From: Acidobacteriaceae bacterium
GTDB taxonomy: Bacteria; Acidobacteriota; Terriglobia; Terriglobales; Acidobacteriaceae
Assembly: GCA_003140075.1 (NCBI GenBank)
Contig: PLIO01000077.1
Location: forward strand, 1 to 42,024
Direction of reading: 5' to 3'
Length of the DNA: 42,024 nt
Both the position numbers and the translations under genes were made by a program. Shown here one piece after another: positions 3,562-22,789 of this stretch (positions within the stretch are counted from its first letter, which is position 1; the number at the start of each line of letters is the position of its first letter). The notes beneath the pieces are model-generated. The model did not search any database. It was given only the letters and a program-made list of their open reading frames with translations, and was not told the DNA's origin.

Positions 3562-3598
3562 GCGCCTCCATGTTCCGAGCACGATCTGTACCAAACTC
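3562..3598 (-). repeat. 37-bp direct repeat, copy 1 (promoter block of receiver gene 1)
   Basis: An exact 37-bp match to 4382-4418 in the same orientation. Each copy lies upstream of a minus-strand response-regulator gene and contains a -24/-12 promoter match. Similarity continues at lower identity for about 60 bp further upstream, up to a conserved ACACTACC box. The stretch 3495-3859 otherwise holds no gene. Confidence 0.9.
3578..3594 (-). promoter_or_regulatory. Putative sigma-54 promoter of receiver gene 1
   Basis: Minus-strand TTGGTACAGATCGTGCT, with GG and GC separated by 10 nt, close to TTGGCACG-N4-TTGCW. The predicted transcript start is about 70 nt before ATG 3494. It lies inside the 37-bp duplicated block. 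Confidence 0.65.
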
Positions 3599-3643
3599 CC
3601 AACGCACAGCAGGGGCGAAGCTTGGGTCTGAAAGGAACTTGGG

Positions 3644-3655
3644 AGTGTAAACACT
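3644..3655. promoter_or_regulatory. Palindrome AGTGTAAACACT, candidate activator site
   Basis: A perfect 5-bp inverted repeat (AGTGT-AA-ACACT) about 50 bp upstream of the -24 element. The second regulator gene has the related AATGTTGACACT at 4460-4471, 46 bp upstream of its own -24 element. Conserved spacing to both promoters suggests a binding site for a sigma-54 activator, though such sites are usually further away. Confidence 0.35.
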
Positions 3656-3859
3656 ACCTTGTCCATGCCAAGAAGTCCATCCAGTCTCCCGGATAAAAAA
3701 GCAATGCGCATAGCCCCGCTTCGCGTGGCGTGCGGAGCTAACAGTTGCTGTCGCAGGGCGATGTTTTCGCGGATTTGCTGCCCGGCTATGAGACTGATTC
3801 GCGATTCGATACGAAGAGATTGAGGTAAAGGACGTGCATGGCCCGATGGAAAGAGAAGT

Positions 3860-4381: not shown

Positions 4382-4418
4382 GCGCCTCCATGTTCCGAGC
4401 ACGATCTGTACCAAACTC
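4382..4418 (-). repeat. 37-bp direct repeat, copy 2 (promoter block of receiver gene 2)
   Basis: Identical to 3562-3598. It is followed upstream by weaker similarity (GGGAAAGAACGTGGGAATG against a matching stretch in copy 1) and the shared ACACTACC box. The 360-bp stretch 4298-4657 between the two divergent regulator genes holds this block and no gene. Confidence 0.9.
4398..4414 (-). promoter_or_regulatory. Putative sigma-54 promoter of receiver gene 2
   Basis: Same minus-strand TTGGTACAGATCGTGCT as at 3578-3594, inside the second copy of the 37-bp block. The predicted transcript start is about 90 nt before ATG 4297. Confidence 0.65.
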
Positions 4419-4657
4419 GCAAAAGCACGGCAGAGCCTTAGAGCGGGAAAGAACGTGGGAATGTTGACACTACCTGGTAACGACGGACAACGAAACGCTA
4501 AGAACAGCGCCTTAGCGAGTGACAGAAGCGTCTTCCTGGGCTGGAAATTTGGGATGCCACCATTCTGTACCAACACTAGCGGGTCATTGCGCATCTGAAT
4601 GTCAGCATAAAACCTACCCGTTGCTCGTAGAGACGCGTTTTTGAGCGGGGATTTCGT

Positions 4658-5038: not shown

Positions 5039-5346
5039 TCACTTCGTCTCCTAGTCCGGAAACTGCAACTTATCCCGTTTCAAAACGCGTAGAGTTCTGA
5101 GCGCTTCCGCAATAGCCTGCTCTTCAGCTTTATGATCTGTGCTCTCGGAAGTCTGCGCCAACTCCTGGAGATTTCCCAGTTCTCGTGGGAATTATGCGCG
5201 CATATGAAGGATATGCGTGAGAAAGTCAGGCCTTAGCGTACACGGTTGAAATCTATGTCTCTTCTAGGTTGAGGCTATATTGGAATGGGTTTACTCGGAA
5301 TGAGTCAGGACTTGAGCGGAGCCAAGCCTCAGGGTTGTCCAGGTCT
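5039..5346. other. 308-bp gap with a possible gene remnant
   Basis: No intact gene. On the minus strand 5051-5191 is open for 46 codons and reads like a real protein tail (LQELAQTSESTDHKAEEQA, ending KRDKLQFPD-stop). It is preceded in frame by a TAA and has no convincing start. It may be the 3' end of a decayed gene. The remainder shows no clear promoter or terminator. Confidence 0.35.
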
Positions 5347-5991
5347 TCAACGCGTCATCAATTCGGCGGGTAGATGCTCGACGAGATTGTAGTCGGCCAG
5401 CCGTGTTTCCCTGGGCGATATCACGATTCTGCTGACCGATGTGTGCCAGGGACACTCCAAAGGCTCGTCATGAAATTGCTCGAGGAATACCACTTCGATG
5501 TCGGCGTGTGTGACGTAGGCGACCCGCTCGCTTGACTGCCCAAACTCGTCTCGCGTACGTCTCAGCAACCGCGCAGCGCGACGTCGCGCCACCGGATAAG
5601 CCTCGTAGGGCTTGCACCTCCACCAACCTTGCTCGTCGATATCGGTCGCGACCTTGATACCGGGATACCGGTCTTCGATTTGGGATCGTGTCATGCCCGG
5701 ACGTCCCTTCAACGCTCGAATACGGGGACCGGCGACGCAGCCGCCCAACTCGTGCAGGTCCACTCGCACCTCGGGGATGAGGTCGAGCCGCTGGCACAAA
5801 TGCGCCGTCGTTTCCAGAGTCCGCAAGAACGGGCTGGTGATGAGCCGAGTTAGCCTGAGATGGTAAATCCACTCAGCCAGATGGTCCGCTTGTCTTCGCC
5901 CATCTTCGGTCAGCGAGGGATCCTCTTCGCGTAGTTTCTCAGGTCGAGCATTGTTCTGCGATTGGCCGTGGCGGATTAGGTAGAGTTCCAT
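5347..5991 (-). CDS. Histidine phosphatase superfamily (phosphoglycerate-mutase-like) protein
   Basis: A 214-residue branch-1 histidine phosphatase. The catalytic motif LIRHGQS (His8) sits at the N-terminus, followed by LTEDGRRQADHLAEW, the phosphate-binding Arg region TSPFLRTLETT, and the second catalytic His in VAYVTHADIE. Such enzymes remove phosphate from small metabolites or phosphohistidine. The start is set at ATG 5991 because family members begin right before LYLIRHG. However, an in-frame ATG at 6060 overlaps the stop of the upstream ATP-grasp gene, so a 23-residue longer form made by translational coupling is possible. It is the last gene of the minus-strand carrier/ATP-grasp cluster, where it may dephosphorylate an intermediate (inference). 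Confidence 0.87.
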   Translation of the reverse strand: MELYLIRHGQSQNNARPEKLREEDPSLTEDGRRQADHLAEWIYHLRLTRLITSPFLRTLETTAHLCQRLDLIPEVRVDLHELGGCVAGPRIRALKGRPGMTRSQIEDRYPGIKVATDIDEQGWWRCKPYEAYPVARRRAARLLRRTRDEFGQSSERVAYVTHADIEVVFLEQFHDEPLECPWHTSVSRIVISPRETRLADYNLVEHLPAELMTR

Positions 5992-6053
5992 TCGCAGAAG
6001 GTCTGTGAACGTTCGACTCAGAACATCACCATGGTTGAAGTGCCACAATACTA

Positions 6054-7352
6054 CTAACATGAATCTGTAATGACTGTGATGTTCTGGAGTACTTCCGCCT
6101 CGAGTTTGTCCAACGCGGCTACATTGGCCCCGTCCATCAAGAAATACCCGCACCGATCTCTCGACTGTCGAATGCTTCCTAACAGCGCGCCTCTTTGTTT
6201 TTCAACCGTCACCTCCCTCAAAGTCGCCGGTTCATGCCGGGCGGAGCAGTCCAGTTCGGCACGCATGCCCGTGTCGAACAAAAACGTCGGCTTAATAGGG
6301 AAGCCCTGCAATTGCACGTCCTTCAATCTTCCATTAGGGTGTTCAAAGTAGACCTGTCTGGCCATTCGGGTCGGTTCGGGGTAGGCAGCTGGTTCTTTCA
6401 GGGCAATCCGTATCAACGCTTCTTCAAGAGGCCGTCCCGTCGCCAGCTGATACAAGGGCATGATGCCGTCTCCAGGGTTTCTGGCGGCGACTTCCATCAA
6501 AAATACTCGACCTTCCGGAGTGATTTTGAACTCGGCGTGCGATACTCCATCTTGAAATCCAAGGCGTTGCACTACGTCTTGATTTGCTTCGTAAAGCCGA
6601 GTCAAGCGGCTTTCGTGCACGTCTGGAGCAGGCAAGGTATGCGCCAGTTCCACAAACTGCTTCGAATGCAAATGATTTGTCCGCTTCAACGTCGCGTTTC
6701 TAAAGACGATCTCTCCGTCTTGAACAAGACTCTCCACTGAGAATTCATCGCCAGCAACAAGGGCTTCCAACAAGACGTGCTCGTTGGATCCGTAATTAGG
6801 CAGCTCTCTTAGCGCCTCGTCGAAAGAATCGACTGAAACAACTCCCGAACTGGCCTGGCGACCGGTCGGCTTCAATACCGCCGGAAACGTTTCGAAACCG
6901 CTGCGTGTGGCGGCTTGATTCACGGTTATGAAAGGTGGGCTCCAATCTTCTAGATATGTCCGTTGCAAAAATTTATTGCGGCACACATGGCCGGCTCTCA
7001 AACCGGGACCTGGCAGATTCAAGAAATCCGCAACAATTGCAGCCTGTGTGACGAAATACTCGCGGATGGTATAGACGCCCCCTATAATGTATTCCTTCCG
7101 CCATGCGTTCACCTGCCGGATAATCGCATGCAGATCCGTCGGATCGACTAGTACGATCTCCCTGGCCCTGTGGAGTACGTGCCCTTCATTACTGTTTCTG
7201 CACGCCAGTCTGAGCCTGCTTCGTTCCGTATCTTCATCAATGATGCAGACGAGGAACTCTCTTTCGCGGAGATAGTGTATGAAACGCGGATACTGGGCGG
7301 CGTATACTCCGCCGAAAAGGATGAAAGCCTTTTGTTTCGTCCCTGCGATCAT
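6054..7352 (-). CDS. ATP-grasp ligase (carboxylate-amine ligase, carnosine-synthase-like)
   Basis: A 432-residue ATP-grasp protein. The N-terminal pre-grasp part starts AFILFGGVYAAQYPRF and holds a Rossmann-like fold. The ATP-binding core spans about 120-320: PAVLKPTGRQASSGVV with the ATP-contacting Lys, VLLEALVAGDEFSVESLV, and HAEFKITPEGRVFLMEVAAR with the metal-binding Glu/Asn-type residues (EVAARNPGD). A C-terminal lid of about 100 residues follows, as in BL00235/carnosine-synthase-type ligases that join an acid to an amine through an acyl phosphate. Its ATG overlaps the stop of the preceding ATP-grasp gene by 4 nt (ATGA), and its own end touches the phosphatase gene, so all three are probably co-translated. 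The substrate is unknown. Confidence 0.88.
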   Translation of the reverse strand: MIAGTKQKAFILFGGVYAAQYPRFIHYLREREFLVCIIDEDTERSRLRLACRNSNEGHVLHRAREIVLVDPTDLHAIIRQVNAWRKEYIIGGVYTIREYFVTQAAIVADFLNLPGPGLRAGHVCRNKFLQRTYLEDWSPPFITVNQAATRSGFETFPAVLKPTGRQASSGVVSVDSFDEALRELPNYGSNEHVLLEALVAGDEFSVESLVQDGEIVFRNATLKRTNHLHSKQFVELAHTLPAPDVHESRLTRLYEANQDVVQRLGFQDGVSHAEFKITPEGRVFLMEVAARNPGDGIMPLYQLATGRPLEEALIRIALKEPAAYPEPTRMARQVYFEHPNGRLKDVQLQGFPIKPTFLFDTGMRAELDCSARHEPATLREVTVEKQRGALLGSIRQSRDRCGYFLMDGANVAALDKLEAEVLQNITVITDSC

Positions 7353-8332
7353 TCTCGCGCCCTTCGCAGCGCCGCATTGATTATGCGCCGGAGATTGATT
7401 TCGAAACCCGGCGTGCCCCAGATCTTGTTTGTCGAGAGAAGTCCCGGATTCGAATTCGCTTCGATGATGATGATGTTCTCTTCATCGTCCATGCGGAGAT
7501 CGATCTTCGCATAGCCCCGAAGGTCCAGAACGTTCGCGGTCTTGCGCGCTATTTCCGCCATTCTGGTCTTCAGCCGACGAGGAAGCAAGGCCCGCCGCGC
7601 ATGAGTCTCGTAGAGACGGCACGGTTTCCCCCACTTCATGAGGAGCTCGGTCTTGAATCCCCGCCCCGGCCTGGCCGAGTCAAAGTGCAGTTCAACAATC
7701 TCTGTAATGTAGAAGGCCCAACGTCGTGCCTCGACGAGCCCAACCTGGAACTCCCGCCCGACGATGAACTCGTCGCATACCGCGTGCATTTCCAACTCTC
7801 GCCACAGCCGATCGGCGCGTTTCAGCGCCTGGGCGTATGAGTCGACGACGCTGTCGCCGCGGATGCCCTCAGAGTCCCCGCTAGATACGGGCTTTACGAT
7901 GAACGGCGGGTCGAAATCAAGCGTTTTCGGCCGGCGGCGTGGTGCAAGCTCCGCGAACCTGGGAACCCTGATGCCGGCGGTCCGTAGAAGATGGCGAGAT
8001 CGAATCTTGTCATTCGCGAGAGCAATGCTCGAAGAGCCTGATCCGGTATAAGGAAGTCCCAAGACCTCCAGAGCGCCCGCGAACGACGGTTCGAGCGGGC
8101 AAGCGGAGAACGCCAAGTTGAAGACAACCTCGGGTTGCAGCCGGGCCAACTCTTCGATGGTGCCCTTGCCCTCCACGCCGGGCACGAGGTGTACCACATC
8201 CGCCAGACGGCGAAGCCTGCGAACGACGGAGATGTCGAATGCCATGCGCTTGTCCGATTCCGACGTTTCCCCCCGGCTGACGCAGTCAATGATGTCGTCA
8301 TCGATAACGCACGCAATCGCACGCAGTTTCAT
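7349..8332 (-). CDS. D-Ala-D-Ala-ligase-like ATP-grasp protein
   Basis: A 327-residue Ddl-related ATP-grasp enzyme. Order: N-terminal domain ending VFNLAFSACPLEPSF, substrate loop GLPYTGSGSSSIALANDK, ATP-binding PPFIVKPVSSGDSEGI, CDEFIVGREFQVGLV, and the metal site AKIDLRMDDEENIIIIEANSNPGL. The Asp, Glu and Asn ligands are all present, so it should be active. Ddl relatives outside peptidoglycan synthesis often make dipeptides or amino-acid amides in specialised pathways. The start is ATG 8332 with GAGG 6 nt upstream, rather than the longer GTG at 8392. It lies 96 bp after the PLP synthase gene and overlaps the next ATP-grasp gene by 4 nt. A housekeeping cell-wall role is unlikely given these neighbours (inference). 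Confidence 0.88.
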   Translation of the reverse strand: MKLRAIACVIDDDIIDCVSRGETSESDKRMAFDISVVRRLRRLADVVHLVPGVEGKGTIEELARLQPEVVFNLAFSACPLEPSFAGALEVLGLPYTGSGSSSIALANDKIRSRHLLRTAGIRVPRFAELAPRRRPKTLDFDPPFIVKPVSSGDSEGIRGDSVVDSYAQALKRADRLWRELEMHAVCDEFIVGREFQVGLVEARRWAFYITEIVELHFDSARPGRGFKTELLMKWGKPCRLYETHARRALLPRRLKTRMAEIARKTANVLDLRGYAKIDLRMDDEENIIIIEANSNPGLLSTNKIWGTPGFEINLRRIINAALRRARE

Positions 8333-8428
8333 TCGAAGCCTCGACACACGACGGCCATCGCGATAAGCCGAGACATCCTCGACTCGGGGCACGGGGTGTG
8401 GCGCGCGTCGCGTTGCTCCGCCTCAGGA

Positions 8429-9433
8429 TCATCGATCCACACTGCCAGTGTCTGCATCCAGAAACCCATTCTTCCGCATCCAGTCATCATCGTATACCTT
8501 GGAGATATACCGATAGCCGCTGTCCACGAAGATAACCAGCACTTTCTTGCCATCAAGACGGTCGCCTTGGTCAGCGATCCAACGCAATGCGCCGACCACC
8601 GCGCTGCCCGATGAAGCCCCCGCAAAGATGCCCTCATCCGTCAATATTTTGCGGGTCATCAGGAACGACTCTTTGTCGTTTATTTGGACGACGTCATCAA
8701 TCAGCTTGAAATCGAAAATCCCTGGCAACCATTGCTTACCAATCCCTTCAACCAAATAGCTCTTCGACGGCGATCTGGACTCACCATACTTGAACGTGTC
8801 GTGGATGACGGAGCCAATAGGGTCGACGGCGATTATGTCAACGCCGGGTTTGTGCTCCTTCAGGAACTTTCCCACGCCCATTACCGTTCCTCCGGTACCG
8901 ATACCAGCAACAAAGGCATCGATATCCGGCATTTGCCTCAGTATCTCTGGCCCCGTATAGCGGTAGTGGTGGTCCAGATTAGCCGGATTGTTGTACTGGT
9001 CAATGTAAATCGCATTTGGCGTTTCGTCGGCGAGCCGTCGGGCCACCGCGTAGTTGCTTCGTGGATCATCAGGAAGCAATCCAGTCGGTGTGACGATCAC
9101 CCGAGCGCCAAAGGCCCGAAGTGTCTTTTGTTTCTCGGCAGACACTTTTTCTGGGACGACGAAGATACATTGATACCCTTTGACGGCCGCCGCCATCGCC
9201 AAGCCCACTCCCGTATTGCCACCCGTTGCCTCTATGACGACTCCGCCCGGCTTGAGAACCCCTCGATGCTCTGCGTCTGCGATCAGCCACCAGCCGACAC
9301 GATCCTTCAGTGAGCCACCCGGATTGGCAAATTCCAACTTCGCGTAGACGTGGGCTTTAACTCCTGCTGCGACCTTATTCAGTCGCACAATAGGAGTGTT
9401 CCCGATGACTTCCAGTACCGAGTTATGAATCAT
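8429..9433 (-). CDS. PLP-dependent cysteine synthase/cystathionine beta-synthase-like enzyme
   Basis: A 334-residue beta-replacement enzyme of fold type II. Lys43 in NPGGSLKDRVG forms the PLP Schiff base, the carboxylate loop is EATGGNTGVGLA (68-79), GTGGT (179-183) binds the PLP phosphate, and AGASSG (271-276) holds the PLP-ring Ser. The end SGYRYISKVYDDDWMRKNGF matches the catalytic core of CBS/CysM rather than plain CysK. The carboxylate loop has TGGNTG where CysK/CBS usually have TSGNTG, so substrate preference may differ. The family replaces an O-acetyl, O-phospho or hydroxyl group of serine derivatives with a thiol or amine. A weak GAGAA precedes ATG 9433. It lies between the JAMM gene and the ATP-grasp genes, which suggests it uses a carrier-bound thiocarboxylate as CysM does (inference). 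Confidence 0.92.
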   Translation of the reverse strand: MIHNSVLEVIGNTPIVRLNKVAAGVKAHVYAKLEFANPGGSLKDRVGWWLIADAEHRGVLKPGGVVIEATGGNTGVGLAMAAAVKGYQCIFVVPEKVSAEKQKTLRAFGARVIVTPTGLLPDDPRSNYAVARRLADETPNAIYIDQYNNPANLDHHYRYTGPEILRQMPDIDAFVAGIGTGGTVMGVGKFLKEHKPGVDIIAVDPIGSVIHDTFKYGESRSPSKSYLVEGIGKQWLPGIFDFKLIDDVVQINDKESFLMTRKILTDEGIFAGASSGSAVVGALRWIADQGDRLDGKKVLVIFVDSGYRYISKVYDDDWMRKNGFLDADTGSVDR

Positions 9434-9889
9434 TGCTTCTCATTCAATACAGGCGCGCGTCGAGGCCTTCACGGACGTTCGCGCGGTAGTCGGATACGGG
9501 TCTAGAATCGGCGCGCAGATCCTGCAAGGAGACGGGCGCGGGGAAAACCGCGACCTGCTTGTGGCGCGCGCGACAACGGCCCGGAGCCAGGGCCGCAGTC
9601 CTTCCGGGAGATGCTCCAGGATGTTGTAAGCTTGTGGACCTTGACAGCGTCGGATCGGAGCCGCGGATCCAATCGCCTGCGTCACCGCTTGGTGCAGCGC
9701 CTTCGCGCCATCGAGAGCTACCAAGTGGCTGCGGTCGGTGCGGAGTCCGCAGCGCCGCAAGTCGGCAAGGAGGCTCTGACACACCGCCGCATTCTCCGTC
9801 GAGCCGTCCAAGATGCCGAGCGCCTGTCTGCCCAACTACCAGCCCAATCCCTTTCTCAAGAACCACTCGCCAGCGCCCGGTTCGTTGTC
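9434..9889 (-). mobile_element. 456-bp gap holding a degraded IS256-family transposase remnant
   Basis: The segment 9563-9835 in one minus-strand frame encodes LGILDGSTENAAVCQSLLAD, LVALDGAKALHQAV (the second Asp of the DDE triad) and YNILEHLPEGLRPWLRAVVA, the central core of IS256-family transposases. Both ends are missing: a stop codon directly precedes the matching part, and reading changes right after AVVARA. No terminal inverted repeats were recognised. The remnant separates the JAMM-FGE gene from the PLP synthase gene. The rest of the gap (9444-9533) carries a short open piece of no certain origin. Confidence 0.8.
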
Positions 9890-11284
9890 TCATCGGCACA
9901 ACCTAAAGCCTAAGTCACGTGCGCTGAAACTGGGAGGTTCGTGAAATCGATACCGGGAGCGGCACATTTCTGCGTGGGAGTGCATACATCCGCCACGAGT
10001 GACCCGATTCGTTTCCTGAGCCCCATCCTTGTTCCTGAAGCCAGGCCCCTTGTTGACGGGTGCGACACCAGCCGGCCGTGAATAGAAACTGTCGTCGTAG
10101 TTGTCCTCACACCACTCCCATACGTTGCCGTGCATATCGAATACGCCGCATGAATTGGGCTTCTTCAGGCCAACAGGATGAATGCGGCCGCCGGAGTTTT
10201 CGCTATACCAGGCATGTTCAACCAAATCGCTTTCTGATTTACAGCACCACTGCCACTCTTCCCCCCGGCTGCAAGCGAACTCCCACTCCGCTTCGGTCAG
10301 CAGCCGACAACCCATCCACAGTGCGAAGAGTTTGGCCTCATACCATGTAACATTGACCTTGGGTTGCGTCCTGTCTTTCACGTGGATATTGGATTGCAAG
10401 GACCACTTGCTGAAGAGAGCATCAGTTATGACAAACCGACCAATGCTAAAATCACGAACTGTCACGTGATGCTTTGGCGTCTCGCCGCAATAAGGCCGGG
10501 ACTTCCCGCGGTCAGTGCCCATCAAGAAGTCCCCTCCTTTCAACGGTATCATGTCCTCGGCCACGAATTCATCATACCGACGTTCGCGGTCTCGAAAGAT
10601 CCCTGTACTTAGCAACTCCGCAATCAATGATTGATCGTCAGTTGACAGAACGTCTTCAATGGCCGCAATAGTGGTTTGTGGGTCCACATGAAGAGGAAGA
10701 CCATTCTCGTCGGACCTGAGAAGCTCACGGGCATCGGCTAGGAGTGTGCTCTTGTCCCTCAACGGGATTCCCTTCGGCCTCGCTAGTCGTTCCTCAGTCG
10801 TCGGCTTCTCCGAATCTAACAAACGGATTTCACTGACGCCCGAATCGTAAATCTCAAACGCCCGGGCCTGTGGGTAATCAGAGGTCCTCATGGAGAAGAT
10901 GACATGCCAGAGCTGCTTCCCGACGCTCTTCATGTGCATCTCGTAGTCAACTCTCGAGAAATTGGCTGGGTGTCTTTGATGGCTATGGAAGACGCCGACC
11001 TCGAACATGCCACGGGCGCGAGTCTCTTTCTTGAACTTCCAGATTTCCTCCGGTGTTGCGACGAACCCCGCATCGCTATGGTCTACAAAATACTGCCCAA
11101 AGCTTTCAAATTCTTCCTTCCAGCCTCTCGCGTTCCGATTATTCCCTTCGAAGATGATGAAATCGGTCGGTATGCCGGCCTTCGTGTCAGAAATGAAATA
11201 GCCGAACGACTTAACTGGGTGACGCTTCCGGATGCTTGCCGTGACGCGATCCATCAATCCTGGAGGAAAGACGAGAGTTTTCAT
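9890..11284 (-). CDS. JAMM/MPN metalloprotease domain fused to FGE/sulfatase-modifying domain
   Basis: A 464-residue fusion. Residues 1-130 are a JAB/MPN domain: zinc motif H100-S-H102...S110..D113 (FHSHQRHPANFSRVD) matches HxH-x7-S-x2-D. The Glu normally found at HPxE near the N-terminus is Lys25 here (HPVK), so catalysis may be altered. Residues 245-464 are an FGE-sulfatase domain: MIPLKGGDFLMGTDRG, RLLTEAEWEFACSRG, GVFDMHGNVWEW, RGGCMHSHAEMCRSRYR and ending DLGFRL. Of the two copper-binding cysteines of true FGEs only the second (Cys441) is kept; the first aligns with Ser436, so it is probably not a classical formylglycine maker. The gene starts 36 bp after the GG-ending carrier protein, its likely substrate: Mec-type JAMM enzymes free an amino acid from a CysO-like carrier. 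The ribosome-binding site is weak. Confidence 0.88.
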   Translation of the reverse strand: MKTLVFPPGLMDRVTASIRKRHPVKSFGYFISDTKAGIPTDFIIFEGNNRNARGWKEEFESFGQYFVDHSDAGFVATPEEIWKFKKETRARGMFEVGVFHSHQRHPANFSRVDYEMHMKSVGKQLWHVIFSMRTSDYPQARAFEIYDSGVSEIRLLDSEKPTTEERLARPKGIPLRDKSTLLADARELLRSDENGLPLHVDPQTTIAAIEDVLSTDDQSLIAELLSTGIFRDRERRYDEFVAEDMIPLKGGDFLMGTDRGKSRPYCGETPKHHVTVRDFSIGRFVITDALFSKWSLQSNIHVKDRTQPKVNVTWYEAKLFALWMGCRLLTEAEWEFACSRGEEWQWCCKSESDLVEHAWYSENSGGRIHPVGLKKPNSCGVFDMHGNVWEWCEDNYDDSFYSRPAGVAPVNKGPGFRNKDGAQETNRVTRGGCMHSHAEMCRSRYRFHEPPSFSARDLGFRLCR

Positions 11285-11320
11285 GGAGAGAAATCGCCTT
11301 TATTCCTGAACCGCGATGTT

Positions 11321-11620
11321 CTAGCCACCCGAGAAGGGGATGATGACGGATACGACGTCCCCGTGCTCAAAGGGTCTGACTTTGGGGACTCCGCTTGATC
11401 CAAACATTTCTTCATTGACAGCGATGGCAATTCCAGGAGCGAGCCCTCCGGAATCGGAGAGAAGACGTTTAGCCAAGTCTGGATGGTTCTCTGTCAGCTC
11501 CTTTACGAATCCGTCCCAGTCCAATGCACCTAGCCCAAGCGGAATCTGTTGCCCCGTTTCACCGGCCGCAGATAGCATATCTTCCCATTGTAGAGGTATT
11601 TCTAACGTAATGGTTGTCAT
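11321..11620 (-). CDS. MoaD/ThiS/CysO-like sulfur-carrier protein ending in Gly-Gly
   Basis: A 99-residue beta-grasp (ubiquitin-like) protein. The second half is typical of the family: ENHPDLAKRLL, GIAIAVNEEMF, then EHGDVVSVIIPFSGG with the terminal Gly-Gly that is adenylated and turned into a thiocarboxylate. In Mycobacterium the equivalent CysO donates sulfur to CysM and the product is cut off by a JAMM protease. Here the next gene is a JAMM protein and a CysM/CBS-like gene follows. No E1-like activating enzyme (MoeZ/ThiF) is in the window, so it would have to come from elsewhere. ATG 11620 has GAGGTGAG upstream. A perfect inverted repeat lies 39 bp before the start. It is the first gene of the cluster. 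Confidence 0.88.
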   Translation of the reverse strand: MTTITLEIPLQWEDMLSAAGETGQQIPLGLGALDWDGFVKELTENHPDLAKRLLSDSGGLAPGIAIAVNEEMFGSSGVPKVRPFEHGDVVSVIIPFSGG

Positions 11621-11658
11621 GGGCTACTCACCTCATTCAATCAAGGATTCCCATTTTG

Positions 11659-11673
11659 GCTCACTAAGTGAGC
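11659..11673. promoter_or_regulatory. Inverted repeat GCTCACT-A-AGTGAGC upstream of the carrier gene
   Basis: A perfect 7-bp inverted repeat with one central base, 39 bp upstream of the ATG at 11620. Its position fits an operator or a leader hairpin for the carrier/JAMM/synthase cluster. No poly-T tract follows on the minus strand within the leader, so a terminator is less likely. Confidence 0.4.
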
Positions 11674-11702
11674 TAAGTGTATCACACCCCCTTGAAAAGG
11701 TT

Positions 11703-11745
11703 GATGAGCGCGAGAGGAATCGAACCTCCAACCTACTGATAGTAA
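11703..11745 (-). pseudogene. tRNA 3'-end remnant
   Basis: The minus strand reads GGAGG-TTCGATT-CCTCT, a complete T-arm with the TTCRANN loop, preceded by AGGTT (variable-loop-like) and followed by CGCGCTC-A as the 3' acceptor strand. The final CCA is TCA. The matching 5' acceptor strand GAGCGCG is absent from the following 150 bp, and the expected anticodon arm is replaced by other hairpins. It is therefore a 3' fragment only, of the type left at the edge of elements that integrate into tRNA genes. Confidence 0.5.
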
Positions 11746-11768
11746 GTTGAGGGCTTCGTCAACTTACT
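11729..11768. repeat. Nested hairpins beside the tRNA remnant
   Basis: CAACCTACT (11729-11737) can pair with AGTAAGTTG (11741-11749, one G-U), and AGTAAGTTGA (11741-11750) can instead pair perfectly over 10 bp with TCAACTTACT (11759-11768), loop GGGCTTCG. The middle arm is shared, so the two hairpins exclude each other. The remainder of 11621-11910 holds no gene. Confidence 0.6.
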
Positions 11769-11910
11769 CACGATCACTCGAAACCCAATGTTTATCAACA
11801 TTCTAGAGGGTTCAGCGGCAGTTGTTCAGCAAGCAGTAAACGGTCGCGGAGAGGCAATCTTAGTCGCGGTTGGTAACGGAGTTGGTACCTTGAGCCAACG
11901 AGGTTTTATT

Positions 11911-12540: not shown

Positions 12541-12623
12541 TGGTTTGCTAGAAATAGCCGGCCAGACTTAGGATATTGCCTCGCGGTACCACCGCGCAAA
12601 GATTCGAGGCTAAGGAGTCTCCC

Positions 12624-14072
12624 TTGAGAATTCACGAGTGCCACCGCGTTTTTCTGTTCTCGGGAGTCTTGATTTGTGGAGCGGCAATATCTGTTGCACA
12701 AACTGAGACAACACCCGGTTCGAGCAATCCAGGACAAGCCATTCCCGGGACGAGTGGAGTGAGCCCGTTCGCGGGCAGCGTGCCGGCCAAGCTCGTTCCC
12801 GGTGTTATCCCGCTCTCGTTGCAGGACGCCATCAACCGCGGAGTGAAGCAAAATCTCGGACTGCTGCTTTCGCATGCGGATATCCGCTCGGCCCGCGGAG
12901 AGCGATGGGAGCAATTGAGCGCTCTCTTACCGCACGTGACGGCAACTCCTTACGTGGCAGAGTCGAAGGTCAACGTCGATGAGATTGGCTTTGCCGGTCT
13001 CGCTAACCTCCTCCATATCCCGCCATCCGTGGGCCCTTTTTCCTACTTTGACGCGCGTGCCGCTGTGACCCAAACCTTGTTCGATTGGAAGTCAATCAAC
13101 GCCACCCGCGCGGCCAGCCAGAGTCTGAAATCCGCCGCTTATACTTTCAAGGACGCTCGGGACCTCGTTGTGCTCGCCGTGGGCTATGTTTATCTACAGG
13201 CCATCGCCGACGAAGCCCGCATCGAAACGGCGGAAGCGCAGGTGAAGACAGCGCAGGCGCTCTACGATCAGGCAGCGGACCAGATCGATGCCGGCACTTC
13301 GCCGGACATCGACGGCCTGCGCACCAAGGTCGAACTCCAGACCCGGCAACAGCAGTTGATCCAGGCGAAGAACAACTTCGCCATCCAGAAGCTGACTGTG
13401 GCTCGCGTCATCGGCCTGGCTCCCGGCCAGGAATTTGAATTCACCGACAAGGCGCCTTACCAGGCGATCGATGCTATCACGGTGGATGAGGCTCTGGGAC
13501 GCGCTTGCGCTTCGCGTTCCGATTACCAGGCGGCCATGACCGACGTGCGCGCAGCGGAATTTGCCCGAAAGGCAGCCGTGGCCGGCTATCTTCCATCGCT
13601 TTCCTTTAACGCGGACTATGGCCTGGGAGGATCGCATCCCTCCACGGCAACGCCGGTAGCAGACGTGCGCGGAACGCTGACGATTCCGATCTTTCAGGGC
13701 GGTAGCGTTCATGGTGATGTCTCGCAGGCTGATGCGAGACTCGAACAGAGCCGCGAACGCCTGGAGAATTTGCGCGCGCAGATCGATTCCGACGTGCGTG
13801 CCGCGCTGCTGAACCTGCAGTCTTCAGCGGATCAGGTGAAGGTAGCGCGCAGCAACATTGATTTGGCGGAAGAGACGCTGACCCAGTCACGCGATCGTTT
13901 CAGCGCGGGCGTCACCGATACCGTGGAAGTGGTGCAATCGCAAGAGGCGGCCGCAAGCGCGCACGAACAGTACATATCGAGCCTCTATCGCTATAATTAT
14001 GCGAAAATTTCTCTGGTTCGAGCTCTAGGTATCGCGGAACAGGGCGTCAAAGAATTTTTCAAAGGAAAATGA
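12624..14072 (+). CDS. TolC-family outer-membrane efflux channel
   Basis: A 482-residue TolC/OprM-type channel. A signal peptide (RVFLFSGVLICGAAISVAQ) is followed by a Pro/Ser/Thr-rich linker, then the two tandem halves of the family, each with long helices and a beta-barrel strand pair: IPLSLQDAINRGVKQNLGLL opens the first half, YLPSLSFNADYGLGG is a second-half strand, and the end is NYAKISLVRALGIAEQGVKE. It spans the outer membrane and periplasm and serves the inner-membrane pump encoded two genes downstream. The start is TTG 12624, which has AAGGAG 6 nt upstream; the open frame extends back to a TTG at 12576 without a ribosome-binding site. The stop overlaps the start region of the next gene (AAATGAACATGG), so the operon is translationally coupled. 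Confidence 0.92.
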   Translation: MRIHECHRVFLFSGVLICGAAISVAQTETTPGSSNPGQAIPGTSGVSPFAGSVPAKLVPGVIPLSLQDAINRGVKQNLGLLLSHADIRSARGERWEQLSALLPHVTATPYVAESKVNVDEIGFAGLANLLHIPPSVGPFSYFDARAAVTQTLFDWKSINATRAASQSLKSAAYTFKDARDLVVLAVGYVYLQAIADEARIETAEAQVKTAQALYDQAADQIDAGTSPDIDGLRTKVELQTRQQQLIQAKNNFAIQKLTVARVIGLAPGQEFEFTDKAPYQAIDAITVDEALGRACASRSDYQAAMTDVRAAEFARKAAVAGYLPSLSFNADYGLGGSHPSTATPVADVRGTLTIPIFQGGSVHGDVSQADARLEQSRERLENLRAQIDSDVRAALLNLQSSADQVKVARSNIDLAEETLTQSRDRFSAGVTDTVEVVQSQEAAASAHEQYISSLYRYNYAKISLVRALGIAEQGVKEFFKGK

Positions 14073-14074
14073 AC

Positions 14075-15337
14075 ATGGCGGAAAACCCTCCCCAATTGGC
14101 GCCCGAGACGGGCAAGGACCATCCGGTTGAGCCATCGATATTGGCCGACAGAGACAACAAGCCGCCGGTGCGTCGGGGTGCCAAGCGTCGCAGAAACATA
14201 TTGATTCTGGCGGTCGCTCTGGTGGTGGTTATCGGCGGCGTGTTCTTGTGGCGTTACCTGAGCAGCTATGAATCCACTGACGATGCCCAGGTTGATGTTC
14301 ACCTCTATCCCGTCAGCGCACGTGTTTCCGGCTACGTGGTGCGGGTCAACGTAGACGACAACCAATGGGTGGAGAAAGGCACGGTGCTGGTGGAGATCGA
14401 CCCGAAAGACTACGAAGTTGCGGTCGCGCAGGCGCAAGCCAATCTCGCCAATGCCGAAGCGACGGCCCAATCGCTGAATATCACGGTTCCCATTACTTCG
14501 GTGAATTCTTCGAGCCAATTGAGGTTCACTGCATCTGGCATCGACGACGCTAACGCCGGAGTCGCCGCTGCTGAGAAGCAACTCACCGCCGCTCACGCCC
14601 AACTGGAGGCCGCCGAGGCGAACGATGTGAGAGCGCAAGACGATCTCCACCGCTACAAGTTATTGGTCGACAAGCGCGAGGTATCGGCGCAAATCTATGA
14701 TCAAGCGTTGGCGGCCGCCAAATCGAGCACGGCGACCGTATCGGCAGCCCGCGCTAGTGAGTCGGCAGCACAGCAATTCGTCCAACAGGCGCGGAGCCAC
14801 TTGGCGCAAGCTAACGCGAACCACCAGTATGCGGAGACTGGGCCGCAGCAGGTGTCTTCGACCCGAGAGCACGTGCAAGCTTTGATTGCAGATGTCGAAC
14901 AAAAGCGCGCTCTGCTGGAGCAGGCCCAACTGAATCTCGGATACACGAAGATCGTCGCTCCGGTCAGCGGGGAAGTGAACAAGACGGTGGTGGTTGGGAT
15001 GAATGTCCAGGACGGGCAGCAACTCCTCACCGTGGTGCCGCTTGACGAAGTGTGGGTCACCGCCAACTTTAAAGAGACGCAGCTTAAGCATATGCAAGTT
15101 GGACAAAGAGCGGAAATCCATGTGGATTCGAGCGGACAGACGTTCAAAGGCCATGTAGACAGCATTGCGGGAGCAACCGGCCCGCTGTTCAGTTTGCTTC
15201 CGCCGGAAAATGCCACCGGAAACTACGTGAAAATTGTCCAGAGGATTCCGGTAAAGATCGTTCTCGAACCCGGGGAGAACCGGGGTCGCCGGCTTCGACC
15301 CGGCATGAACGTAGTGCCGGACGTTTACCTCAAATGA
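14075..15337 (+). CDS. HlyD/EmrA-family membrane fusion protein
   Basis: A 420-residue periplasmic adaptor. It has a basic cytoplasmic tail (RRGAKRRRN), one membrane helix (ILILAVALVVVIGGVFLWRY, about 41-60), and the EmrA signature ESTDDAQVDVHLYPVSARVSG with half-lipoyl halves VEKGTVLVEIDP and YTKIVAPVSGEVNK. Between them lies a long coiled coil (about 115-270) rich in Ala, Gln and Glu, then a beta-barrel domain VWVTANFKETQLKHMQVGQ. It links the DHA2 pump to the TolC channel. ATG 14075 has AAGGA 8 nt upstream; ATG 14069, overlapping the tolC stop as ATGA, has the same motif only 2 nt away. Its own stop overlaps the next start by 4 nt. Confidence 0.93.
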   Translation: MAENPPQLAPETGKDHPVEPSILADRDNKPPVRRGAKRRRNILILAVALVVVIGGVFLWRYLSSYESTDDAQVDVHLYPVSARVSGYVVRVNVDDNQWVEKGTVLVEIDPKDYEVAVAQAQANLANAEATAQSLNITVPITSVNSSSQLRFTASGIDDANAGVAAAEKQLTAAHAQLEAAEANDVRAQDDLHRYKLLVDKREVSAQIYDQALAAAKSSTATVSAARASESAAQQFVQQARSHLAQANANHQYAETGPQQVSSTREHVQALIADVEQKRALLEQAQLNLGYTKIVAPVSGEVNKTVVVGMNVQDGQQLLTVVPLDEVWVTANFKETQLKHMQVGQRAEIHVDSSGQTFKGHVDSIAGATGPLFSLLPPENATGNYVKIVQRIPVKIVLEPGENRGRRLRPGMNVVPDVYLK

Positions 15338-16929
15338 GTTCCGCTGCCCTCACGCTCGATCAGGCAGTTTGGCGGCCCAAGTACAATCCCTGGCTGATTG
15401 CGGTTGTCGTGGCGCTGGCGGCCTTCATGGAGGTCCTCGACACCAGCATCGCCAACGTGGCGCTGCCGTACATGGCCGGGAATCTGGGAGCGAGCAACGA
15501 CCAAAGCACCTGGGTGTTGACTTCTTATCTGGTCTCGAATGCCATCATCCTGCCCATCAGCGGCTGGCTCGCAGGCGCACTGGGCCGGAAGCGTTTTTTC
15601 ATGTCCTGCCTGGCTGTGTTTACTGTAAGTTCGTTGCTCTGTGGCATCGCACCGAGTCTCGGCTTTCTTCTTCTCTTTCGCGTGTTGCAGGGTGCGGGCG
15701 GCGGCGGGCTGCAGCCGATGGCGCAGGCCATCCTGGCAGACACCTTCCCACCGCAGCAGCGAGGCTTGGCATTTGCCCTGTATGGCATTACTGCCATCAT
15801 GGCGCCCACGATCGGGCCGACCCTGGGCGGGTGGATCACCTTCAATTATTCCTGGCGGTGGATTTTTTTCATCAACCTCCCGGTCGGCTTAGCCACATGG
15901 TTTCTCGTGCGACGATTTGTCGAAGACCCTCCCTATTTAGCCAAACTCAAGGCGGCTGGGGTCAAGTTGGACTACATCGGCATCGCACTGCTAACTCTCG
16001 GCATCGGGGCGTTGCAGGTACTGCTCGACAAGGGCCAGGAAGATGATTGGTTCGGATCACGCTTCATCACAACTTTAATCGTCGTCGCGACAGTTTGCCT
16101 GATCTCGCTGGTGATTTGGGAGTGGTATCAAAAGGCGCCGATCATCGACGTCCGCATGTTCAAGAGCTTTAACTTCGCGAGCTCCAGCCTGATGATGTTC
16201 ACTCTGGGCATCTTGTTGTTCAGCAGCCTGGTCCTGATGCCGCAGTTCCTGCAGACGCTCGTGGGGTACACCTCCCAACTGGCGGGGCTTGCTCTTTCGG
16301 CAGGAGGCCTGGTCTTGCTCTTTGAGATGCCTATCATGGGCCAACTGACAACGAAGATCCAGGCGCGCTACCTGATTGCCTTCGGCTGGCTGGCACTATC
16401 CATCGCCATGTTCTATTCCACGAAACGGATTGACTTGCAGATTAGCTTCAGTGCCGCCACCTGGCTGCGCATCACCCAGGTGATTGGTTTGGGGTTCCTG
16501 TTCGTACCGATTACGCTGGTGGCTTACATCGGAATTGCGCCGGAGAAGAACAACGCGGTCGCCGGAATCGTAAATTTCATGCGGAATATGGGAAGCAGCG
16601 TGGGCACGTCATTAGTCACTACATTGATTGCCCGGCGCTCGCAATTCCATCAGGCCAGGCTGGTGCAGAACGCCAGAGTCGACAACCCTAATTTTGTGAA
16701 TGCCGCGAAGGGTTTGGCCCAGCACCTGACGAACTCCCGTGTGGGCAAGCACGAAGCGCAAATGACTGCTTACGCCCAGATTTATCAATCCTTGCAAGCA
16801 CAGGCTGCAAGCCTGGCATACATTGATACGTTTATGGTTCTTTGCGTGGGAGCGGCGATCATGTTCGGCCTGGCTTTTGTTTTGAAGAAGAATGATCCCG
16901 GTGGTGGCGGACCGAGGGTAATGGAATAA
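15334..16929 (+). CDS. EmrB/QacA-type DHA2 multidrug efflux transporter (MFS)
   Basis: A 531-residue, 14-helix proton-driven drug exporter. Signatures: the DHA2 first-helix motif EVLDTSIANVALPYMAGNLG, loop motif GRKRFF after helix 2, helix-4 motif RVLQGAGGGGLQPMAQAIL, and helix-5 motif C with Gly/Pro (ITAIMAPTIGPTLGGWIT). The C-terminus is short and cytoplasmic (KKNDPGGGG). It overlaps the adaptor gene by 4 nt, so channel, adaptor and pump form one tripartite operon. The exported compound cannot be read from the sequence, and no TetR- or MarR-type regulator lies beside it. Confidence 0.95.
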   Translation: MSSAALTLDQAVWRPKYNPWLIAVVVALAAFMEVLDTSIANVALPYMAGNLGASNDQSTWVLTSYLVSNAIILPISGWLAGALGRKRFFMSCLAVFTVSSLLCGIAPSLGFLLLFRVLQGAGGGGLQPMAQAILADTFPPQQRGLAFALYGITAIMAPTIGPTLGGWITFNYSWRWIFFINLPVGLATWFLVRRFVEDPPYLAKLKAAGVKLDYIGIALLTLGIGALQVLLDKGQEDDWFGSRFITTLIVVATVCLISLVIWEWYQKAPIIDVRMFKSFNFASSSLMMFTLGILLFSSLVLMPQFLQTLVGYTSQLAGLALSAGGLVLLFEMPIMGQLTTKIQARYLIAFGWLALSIAMFYSTKRIDLQISFSAATWLRITQVIGLGFLFVPITLVAYIGIAPEKNNAVAGIVNFMRNMGSSVGTSLVTTLIARRSQFHQARLVQNARVDNPNFVNAAKGLAQHLTNSRVGKHEAQMTAYAQIYQSLQAQAASLAYIDTFMVLCVGAAIMFGLAFVLKKNDPGGGGPRVME

Positions 16930-21145: not shown

Positions 21146-22789
21146 TTACTCGCGTTTCGATCCGGCGGCTGGCTTCTTTCCCACATTCTGCCGCTTGTCT
21201 TTGTGGCCAAGGTCCAGGCCGAAGCGCGGTTCCGACTCCGTGCCTGAAATTCTGATCGGGATCTCCGTTCCCGCTCCATTCTTTGTAAAGAACGGATCAA
21301 TGGGCCTCAGAAGAATCGATTTCCAGCCGGTAGTCATCTGCGACAGCTTCGCATCCAACCGCACCTTCCCACGAAAATCGAACGTTCGTCCGTCTAAACT
21401 GTAGTCGCCTGTCATATCGACATGCGTCCCCGGAATCAGAAAATGAAGAGACGAAAAGCTCAGCAATCCCTCCTTCAGAGTGAACACGCCGCGCAGATCA
21501 ACCGGCACATTTTCCCCGGTGTGCTCCTGCACCTCCTTGGGTTTCCCCTGGCTGCGCAAACTCAGCGAGTCGAGCCGGCTCTGCACTTTTTCGTTCGTAA
21601 AGTGCGCACTCAGCACGTGAAAATTGCCCGCTAACTGCAGTTTGTCAGCCACGCTCGCATCGCCGGGAGCCAGACTCAACCGCGTCTTCATCTCCACCGG
21701 ACCAGTCATAACCGGAGGGTTGGTTCGCACTCCCAGCGTGAGCAAATCTTCAATCCGCGCATGATCCATCACCACATTGAGATGGATGTCGTGACCATTC
21801 GGCACGCGCACCACCGAACCCTCTGCGGTAAAGGAAGAATGAAGCAATGTCGCATTCACCGGCCGTAGATACGTGTCGCCGCTGGCGCCGTCAACAACGG
21901 CATGAAATTCCGTGTGCAGCGGCACCGGATGCCCGCTGGTCGCAATCTGGAAGTCCGGCGTATCGGTTTTCCCACGCACGGCGATATTGCCGAGAGTTCC
22001 CGAATATCGGCCAGTCGACGAGAGCGTCCCTCCAATGCCCTTGATGGTGCTCAGATCTGCGTCGCTGAAGGAATAGTCTCCTTGCACCGGAGTGTCCCGA
22101 GGGCTGTCGGGCTGCCATGGGCCGAACAAACCGCTTGACTGAATATTCCCCACCGGCCTCGGATTAACCAAGGTTGCATCAAAATGCATGGGCAGGCCGG
22201 GCCCAACATCCTTCATCCTGAGGTCTCCAATAGCAAATTCCAGCGGCGGCTTACCCGGTCTTGAAGTGTTGATCAGCAGCTTCGTATCTTCGCAAACGAA
22301 CTTGTCGACAATGATCGCCATCTTGCCGGTTCTTGAACCCATCTTCGTTATTTCCCGGCGATCTCCCTTCGGCGGGATATTCAGCTCCAGACCCTTCACG
22401 TACACCGTGTCTACGTGCATCGGCGAACGAAACAAACTGCGCAATGCCGTTTGGAACCGGAACTCCCGAACATCGATCAGCGCTTGCACACCCGGCTCAT
22501 AAGGATTGGGATCCGTTGCGCCAAAAATTTTCAGCCCTTCCCCGGAGACTTCCAGTCCATTGACCACCGAAACATGAAGACTCGCCAGCTCCACTTTGCT
22601 CTCGAAGCGATTCGATAAAGTCTCAATGACCCGGGTTCGCAGGATCGGTTCGGCGCGATCGATCACCAGTCGCACCGCTACCACCGCGCCAACCAACAGA
22701 ATGAGAGCGGCTACGCCGATCCATTTCCAGGGCAGCGCATGGCCCGCCTTCTGCGAAGTTCTTTTGGGTGGAGTTTGCACAACCGCCAT
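21146..22789 (-). CDS. AsmA-like membrane-anchored protein
   Basis: A 547-residue protein with one N-terminal membrane helix (WIGVAALILLVGAVVAVRLV, about 23-42) and a long periplasmic beta-rich part. It starts with the AsmA-type segment RVIETLSNRFESKVELASLH and later has repeats of the kind LRGVFTLKEGLLSFSSLHFL and VDMTGDYSLDGRTFDFRG, ending KSILLRPIDPFFTKNGAGTE, all typical of AsmA/DUF748-type bridge proteins. These are thought to help lipid or envelope homeostasis between the membranes. The tail is basic (KKPAAGSKRE). No ribosome-binding site is evident before ATG 22789. It lies 93 bp downstream of the exopolysaccharide-type operon on the same strand and may be its last gene. Confidence 0.8.
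   Translation of the reverse strand: MAVVQTPPKRTSQKAGHALPWKWIGVAALILLVGAVVAVRLVIDRAEPILRTRVIETLSNRFESKVELASLHVSVVNGLEVSGEGLKIFGATDPNPYEPGVQALIDVREFRFQTALRSLFRSPMHVDTVYVKGLELNIPPKGDRREITKMGSRTGKMAIIVDKFVCEDTKLLINTSRPGKPPLEFAIGDLRMKDVGPGLPMHFDATLVNPRPVGNIQSSGLFGPWQPDSPRDTPVQGDYSFSDADLSTIKGIGGTLSSTGRYSGTLGNIAVRGKTDTPDFQIATSGHPVPLHTEFHAVVDGASGDTYLRPVNATLLHSSFTAEGSVVRVPNGHDIHLNVVMDHARIEDLLTLGVRTNPPVMTGPVEMKTRLSLAPGDASVADKLQLAGNFHVLSAHFTNEKVQSRLDSLSLRSQGKPKEVQEHTGENVPVDLRGVFTLKEGLLSFSSLHFLIPGTHVDMTGDYSLDGRTFDFRGKVRLDAKLSQMTTGWKSILLRPIDPFFTKNGAGTEIPIRISGTESEPRFGLDLGHKDKRQNVGKKPAAGSKRE

Follow-up and report, generated by a model that had tools for sequence, protein, structure and literature searches.

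Do six neighboring genes of an Acidobacteriaceae bacterium belong together, and if so, what might they make? The genes lie on the minus strand of contig PLIO01000077.1, within positions 5347–11620 of the 42-kb stretch that was analyzed (42,024 nucleotides, hereafter the window). In gene order, they encode a small beta-grasp carrier protein, a fusion of a JAMM domain with a domain resembling formylglycine-generating enzyme (FGE), a pyridoxal phosphate (PLP) enzyme resembling cystathionine beta-synthase (CBS), two ATP-grasp ligases, one resembling D-Ala-D-Ala ligase (Ddl) and the other L-amino acid ligases (LAL), and a histidine phosphatase (Table 1). An original prediction, made from the DNA letters, had taken them for one set. 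We confirmed all six genes, and the 4-nucleotide (nt) overlap of the two ligase genes (7349–7352), where that prediction had placed them. Two features had been overlooked: a remnant of an IS256-family transposase between the JAMM-FGE and PLP enzyme genes, which splits the set, and a 49-nt tRNA-Lys remnant that abuts its border.

Six genes that behave as one mobile cassette

All genome searches reported here covered one phylum. Genome contigs were scanned with the JAMM part by exact peptide words, which detects close relatives only, and the scan returned two loci. The Clostridiaceae locus L034 was rejected as spurious; its match spans 23 residues, and the region looks phage-like by eye. The other, L033 (PLJN01000196.1), belongs to the Acidobacteriaceae metagenome-assembled genome palsa_191 and holds all six genes together with the IS256 remnant. 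A blastn comparison of the window with L033 (E 1e-3) gave three blocks, 5340–9864, 9856–11298, and 11304–11691, at 96.3, 96.1, and 91.8% identity, respectively, and no match outside 5340–11691. One border of this stretch lies 7 nt past the phosphatase stop codon and the other directly at the tRNA-Lys remnant. The gene order in L033 is altered, the JAMM-FGE and carrier genes being swapped and separated by a fragment of a DDE transposase; the six-gene set is intact. From its coordinates, we infer that L033 is the same contig as one in genome G610 (an ATP-grasp gene at 22599 in both), which represents another genus of the same family. Since a contig of another genus has all six in common with the window and nothing beyond the block, the six genes behave, on the evidence of two copies, as one mobile cassette and not as a chance adjacency. 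The original prediction would have given up this unit had related neighborhoods kept only the ligase pair or always held the carrier apart; L033 keeps all six genes and has nothing else in common with the window, and the unit is thus not refuted.

The cassette is 92–96% identical across genera, whereas a search of 25 other genomes of the window's genus with a flanking outer-membrane-efflux gene (Pfam OEP) gave, among its eight best matches, 70–72% identity in seven and 74%, over a shorter alignment, in the remaining one. This difference argues for recent transfer, and the cassette has, judging from these identities, probably moved recently. By codon usage, all six genes fit 15 flanking genes worse than any of those 15 does, on a yardstick that was built from the same 15 genes and favors them. 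GltB, taken as a measure of host distance, was 85% identical in one genus member and 45–46% identical in another member and in G610; these matches are probably not all orthologues. As for traces of insertion, no 8–11-nt words were common to 5241–5345 and 11681–11800, no match spanned both flanks in the 25 other genus genomes, and in five upstream stretches the efflux gene was the sole match. By eye, transposase-like frames are also seen upstream of the second copy (L033 4943–5809).

Constraint on five genes and drift of the carrier

All six reading frames are unbroken in both copies. Between the window and L033, the ratio of nonsynonymous to synonymous substitution rates (dN/dS) was 0.20 for JAMM-FGE (20 nonsynonymous and 27 synonymous substitutions), 0.14 for the PLP enzyme, 0.27 for the Ddl-like ligase, 0.09 for the LAL-like ligase, and 0.22 for the phosphatase, and it reached 0.98 for the carrier (15 and 5). 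Binomial P values, calculated against an assumed 3:1 ratio, ranged from 4e-10 to 9e-4 for the first five genes and came to 0.59 for the carrier. The IS256 remnant provided an internal control, with 93.3% identity and six gap blocks; the carrier gene equals the identity of this dead transposase (93.3%), without gaps. By comparison, identity was 96.8% for JAMM-FGE, 97.7% for the PLP enzyme, and 97.2% for the stretch of the LAL-like ligase and phosphatase. On these substitution counts, five of the six genes are under purifying selection and the carrier is not. The carrier retains its frame and its Gly-Gly end, not its sequence, and may not be essential.

A JAMM domain with lysine in place of the catalytic glutamate

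Aligned with five Mec-type proteins, the JAMM domain keeps the HSH, Ser110, and Asp113 residues of the HSHx7SxxD motif, and Lys25 replaces the catalytic Glu. It is this Glu that supplies the water in JAMM enzymes, and its substitution in BRCC36 (E30A) served to prevent cleavage while substrate was still bound, according to the relevant passages of PMC4579573. By analogy, the cluster JAMM domain would be expected to bind, not cut, and with Lys for Glu the protein is not expected to release a carrier adduct in the ordinary way.

The JAMM domain matched 67 of 396 genomes in a phylum search at E 0.001 (its own included). Five closer relatives came from genomes G113, G258, G250, G101, and G120. Like the proteins of the window and L033, they have Lys25 and an insert that separates the first strands from the HxH motif (7/7); we refer to this group by our own name, Lys-JAMM. 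A motif script was run on 48 loci, a subset of the matching genomes (30 loci from the phylum search, 6 of the 12 from a profile search, and 12 otherwise fetched). It found the HxH...SxxD motif in 42, with Glu in 36 rows (34 distinct loci, two having been fetched twice) and Lys in six (4 distinct); thus, Glu was present at all 34 distinct Mec-type loci examined. The six motif-less loci amount to three Lys-JAMM proteins, since each had been fetched twice; these have Thr for Ser and also carry Lys. A seven-row Lys-JAMM profile matched 24 genomes at E 1e-8, six of them over the full length and all of these profile members by construction; no further full-length member was found in 277 genomes.

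The five relatives stand alone (156–176 residues, without an FGE domain) and have the same Lys at the Glu column, the same insert, and the same zinc ligands as the cluster protein. Genes for a molybdopterin oxidoreductase and a CoA-transferase III lie beside them in 5/5 stretches, as do Fe-S and NrfD-type genes (Pfam NrfD in the three tested, the rest by eye). One such oxidoreductase, when tested, was at best PhsA-like (206.5 of 694 bits), and no CBS-like or LAL/Ddl-like gene was noticed in these stretches. A standalone Lys-JAMM protein had no match in the plasmid collection. The JAMM domain was predicted to adopt a JAMM fold (pLDDT 69.7), from an alignment that included Mec rows and is therefore biased toward that fold; the best Foldseek match was 2kks (E 5.6e-9).

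The complete fusion appears to be rare. A full-length match to JAMM-FGE at E 1e-20 was found in its own genome alone among 297 phylum genomes; 40 other genomes match, and the matches listed all start at query residue 197 or later, in the FGE part. Viral contigs yielded no relative. A match in genome G275 (L004) begins with a TIR domain and was rejected as related to the fusion; an Ensifer match (L056) that starts at query residue 122 was rejected as a JAMM-FGE protein. A single-sequence AlphaFold model of the entire fusion had a pLDDT of 33. True FGE has a copper-binding pair of cysteines, and both the FGE chain 6muj and the C-terminus of L056 show the complete LC...YC motif. Compared with 6muj, the domain here has Ser for the first copper cysteine and keeps the second; a canonical formylglycine-generating enzyme was rejected on this ground, and we refer to an FGE-like domain. 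EgtB and OvoA carry an N-terminal DinB-type iron domain. A sulfoxide synthase of this type was also rejected, since the N-terminus here is Prok-JAB, no DinB domain was found at E 0.01, and the egtB score was 81 of 360 bits.

Ligases and a PLP enzyme that point to a small amide

The PLP enzyme scored 401.5 bits against the cystathionine beta-synthase family and 253.9 against cysM, whereas the host's own CysM-like enzyme gave the reverse (335.2 for cysM, 229.1 for CBS); all four scores are below cut-off. Its nearest solved chain, 4ofx, is named a CBS, and it also matches the SbnA family (263.9 of 350 bits). Among its plasmid relatives, L082 and L083 are annotated as CBS, and L082 and L087 adjoin a cystathionine gamma-synthase gene.

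Of the two ligases, the LAL-like protein exceeds the cut-off for ATP-grasp_4 (27 bits; Table 1) and falls short of that for LAL_C2 (25.1 against 29.4 bits). Relatives are scarce, with one of 297 phylum genomes at E 1e-30 (its own) and two of 397 order genomes at E 1e-20 (its own and G610), in samples that overlap to some extent. Viral contigs held none. In the plasmid collection 240 records match, 18 of them with a query coverage of 80% or more, and the nine best relatives are 34–40% identical over 86–100% of the query. The gene tables of this collection are incomplete, and the Embleya locus L040 has no annotation there. A major facilitator superfamily (MFS) transporter gene lay within the fetched stretch at all five annotated loci read, two of which (L035 and L037) represent one type of cluster. 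The Sulfuriferula nivalis locus L036 has a PALP enzyme, 29% identical to that of the cassette, and a second ATP-grasp gene. For the Ddl-like ligase, the two Rhizobium-type plasmid loci read show no similar neighborhood, and its score lies below the NCBIfam cut-off for D-Ala-D-Ala ligases (Table 1). Two ATP-grasp ligases with an adjoining beta-replacement PLP enzyme suggest a small amide product; the original prediction had proposed a small sulfur-bearing peptide or amide.

The carrier, its relatives, and host genes in trans

The carrier matches SAMP1 at E 1.3e-4 (22.5 of 60 bits) and ends in IPFSGG in both copies; the Gly-Gly pair is invariant in all six aligned carriers. At E 0.01, 12 of 297 phylum genomes (its own included) contain a relative, and the plasmid collection held none. 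Reading frames were listed for seven of the 11 other genomes. At four acidobacterial loci (L043, L045, L048, and L051), the carrier relative is accompanied by a Mec-type gene and a ThiF-rhodanese gene or fusion, and a PALP gene is present in addition at three of them (L043, L045, and L051). At L044 PALP and Mec-type genes adjoin the carrier; L046 and L049 have a PALP gene. These acidobacterial loci fit the type 4c operons as outlined in part of Iyer et al., 2006 (PMC1779556). At L043 1405–2844, L048 1174–2868, and L051 301–1773, carrier and ThiF-rhodanese form a single in-frame fusion, in which the Gly-Gly pair is internal and would need cutting.

The original prediction was correct that the window lacks an E1: no ThiF-family gene was found there, and the host genome has two elsewhere (contigs C189 and C245). 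The one on C189 carries a rhodanese domain (E1-rhodanese) and sits beside a gene for a ThiS-type carrier; CysM-like and Mec-like genes lie side by side on contig C64. The ThiS-type carrier (L073 7666–8022, C189) extends 24 residues beyond its Gly-Gly pair; these could be a cap that has to be trimmed off, or else an effect of the assembly on where the frame ends.

In the mycobacterial route, MoeZR charges CysO, CysM adds O-phosphoserine, and Mec releases the product, as described in portions of PMC3227635. The analogy that the original prediction drew with this route fits the Gly-Gly-ended carrier and the E1-rhodanese of the genome. It fails for the JAMM domain, where Lys25 takes the place of Glu, and for the synthase, which is CBS-like and not of CysM type; nor is the carrier constrained between the copies.

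A tentative role and its alternatives

We tentatively propose that the cassette moves horizontally and serves the biosynthesis of a small amide, the carrier and the Lys-JAMM-FGE protein performing a handling step; we hold this account to be possible, and its handling step is the least certain part. By family, the CBS-like PLP enzyme would turn an activated serine into a beta-substituted alanine. The LAL-like and Ddl-like ligases might then couple this product, using ATP, to one or two amino or carboxylic acids, and the phosphatase may strip phosphate from an intermediate or by-product, the weakest of the enzyme steps. The host E1-rhodanese would charge the Gly-Gly-ended carrier in trans, and the carrier would bring sulfur or hold an intermediate; we infer the sulfur role of the cassette in this way. 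The Lys-JAMM-FGE protein could bind the carrier or its adduct at the zinc site without hydrolysis, while its FGE-like lectin fold could bind a small partner. A more specific version strikes us as unlikely: the carrier would hold sulfur or the growing amide, and a JAMM domain that the Glu-to-Lys change had converted from an isopeptidase into a zinc-bound handler of carrier adducts, fused to an FGE-like domain for substrate binding, would hand this cargo to the CBS-like enzyme and the two ligases. Lys-JAMM would then be a separate, non-hydrolytic JAMM branch.

Several observations weigh against the proposed cassette. Only two copies are known, both from hosts of one family, and relatives of its single parts occur elsewhere without the rest. 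No carrier turned up in the surroundings of the other five Lys-JAMM genes, in a search that detected the L033 carrier as control. The JAMM part was paired with such ligases at no other locus read, and no carrier or JAMM gene is annotated at the five annotated plasmid loci of ligase relatives. The six genes include no transporter or regulator, and the substrates named above are guesses. Lastly, the near-neutral drift of the carrier counts against its being tightly constrained.

That drift, like the IS256 remnant parting the two halves, would suit a working unit that is confined to the PLP enzyme, both ligases, and the phosphatase and makes a sulfur-free peptide, with a 2,3-diaminopropionate-like amino acid as one conceivable building block and with the carrier and JAMM-FGE as passengers. 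SbnA is among the families that match the PLP enzyme, and the Sulfuriferula locus combines a PALP gene with two ATP-grasp genes and no annotated carrier or JAMM gene. However, JAMM-FGE is clearly under purifying selection, and both halves travel together within common outer borders; we place this reading on the unlikely side. A divergent CysO/Mec/CysM route would instead bring the carrier thiocarboxylate to a PLP-bound aminoacrylate, a host Mec-like protein freeing a cysteine-like product for the ligases to couple. The gene logic, the four acidobacterial carrier loci with Mec-type and E1-rhodanese genes or fusions, and the E1-rhodanese and Mec-like genes of the host speak for it, but the PLP enzyme is not CysM-like, the cluster JAMM lacks the catalytic Glu, and the host already owns such genes, and we judge this route distinctly unlikely.

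The gene set could also be an accident of insertion in a decaying genomic island, as the tRNA-Lys remnant at the border, the transposase remnants in both copies, the carrier drift, and the rarity of the set would allow. Six frames intact in both copies and constraint on five genes make such decay quite improbable. A protein-modification or anti-phage system built on a ubiquitin-like (Ubl) carrier and a JAMM protein is very improbable indeed. A ubiquitin-like protein and a JAB domain are found together in predicted conjugation systems, according to passages of PMC1779556, and the bacterial Ubl-deubiquitinase complex 8tyx ranks tenth among the Foldseek matches of the JAMM model. Yet the six genes include metabolic ligases and no E1, E2, or effector, and PADLOC models matched none of the six proteins at E 0.001; the anti-phage reading was rejected on that result.

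Gene models and surrounding features

The Ddl-like ligase and the phosphatase are given from their ATG codons (Table 1). Their longest frames begin at GTG 8392 and GTG 6153, respectively, and the latter would overlap the LAL-like ligase gene. A perfect inverted repeat (6-nt arms, 3-nt spacer; by eye) lies at 11659–11673 in the leader of the carrier gene; it is imperfect in L033 and not clearly conserved. No complete tRNA was found in the window. To the left of the cassette, near response-regulator genes, 3562–3662 and 4382–4478 are 78% identical over 101 columns. Genes for outer-membrane efflux, HlyD, and MFS proteins (12576–16929) directly adjoin the cassette on the opposite strand; they are probably native, as genomes of the genus that lack the cassette have relatives of the efflux gene.

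Table 1. Coordinates of the cassette, its parts, and the standalone Lys-JAMM proteins (window positions unless a locus is named; aa, amino acids).
Feature	Position	Strand	Description
Whole cassette	5340–11691	−	6.35 kb; only stretch common to window and L033
Histidine phosphatase	5347–5991	−	214 aa from ATG 5991; His_Phos_1 79 bits
LAL-like ATP-grasp ligase	6054–7352	−	432 aa; ATP-grasp_4 61.5 bits
Ddl-like ATP-grasp ligase	7349–8332	−	327 aa from ATG 8332; Dala_Dala_lig_C 50 bits, PRK01372 101.3 bits (cut-off 243)
CBS-like PLP enzyme without CBS domains	8429–9433	−	334 aa; PALP 261.4 bits, TIGR01137 401.5 bits (cut-off 510)
IS256-family transposase remnant	9440–9835	−	NF033543 43.5 bits (cut-off 150), Transposase_mut 22.1 bits
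JAMM-FGE fusion	9890–11284	−	464 aa; Prok-JAB 28.4 bits, FGE-sulfatase 144.9 bits, both above Pfam cut-offs
Domain limits of JAMM-FGE			Lys-JAMM about residues 1–158, FGE-like about 243–464
Beta-grasp carrier	11321–11620	−	99 aa, C-terminus IPFSGG; ThiS 19.8 bits (cut-off 22.5)
tRNA-Lys 3' remnant	11692–11740	−	43/49 identical to 3' part of same genome's tRNA-Lys(ctt) region
Standalone Lys-JAMM	L118 88–618		
Standalone Lys-JAMM	L119 7093–7572		
Standalone Lys-JAMM	L120 4544–5014		
Standalone Lys-JAMM	L121 7196–7726		
Standalone Lys-JAMM	L122 6749–7243		

Comparison with known systems

If the cassette works as proposed, it would join sulfur-carrier chemistry to the making of amide bonds by ATP-grasp enzymes. 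The Lys-JAMM proteins point to a JAMM branch with zinc ligands and without the catalytic Glu, a cheap test case for JAMM function without hydrolysis, and the cassette is small, bounded, and portable, so that it could be expressed whole. Its parts are of known kinds; their combination and the Lys-JAMM-FGE fusion were not met in the open-licence PubMed Central (PMC) literature searched. A paper on archaeal fusions (PMC11237513) describes MoaD fusions, none of the JAMM-FGE kind in the passages checked.

FGE and EgtB/OvoA have the FGE-sulfatase domain in common with JAMM-FGE, and L-amino acid ligases such as BL00235 and BacD share the ATP-grasp domain of the LAL-like ligase, which reaches no NCBIfam cut-off. 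The ATP-grasp relatives in Streptomyces, Embleya, and Sulfuriferula lie in neighborhoods different from the cassette. In the thioplatensimycin, pyridine-dithiocarboxylate (PDTC), and quinolobactin thiocarboxylate pathways, a small Gly-Gly carrier and a JAMM protein likewise serve a natural product, and the JAMM protease is proposed to expose the Gly-Gly pair of a capped carrier, as set out in part of PMC6006322. In contrast, the Gly-Gly pair of the cassette carrier is already exposed, its JAMM domain lacks the Glu, and the six genes include no acyl-CoA ligase.

The type 4c and 4d operons (ThiS/MoaD, JAB, and cysteine synthase), as far as the relevant sections of Iyer et al., 2006 describe them, have the same adjacent set of a Gly-Gly beta-grasp carrier, a JAMM-fold protein, and a PALP enzyme. 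The cassette does without the E1 of type 4c and the ClpS of type 4d. It differs further in having a CBS-like PLP enzyme and a Lys-for-Glu JAMM domain fused to an FGE-like domain, and it adds two ATP-grasp ligases, a phosphatase, and an IS256 remnant.

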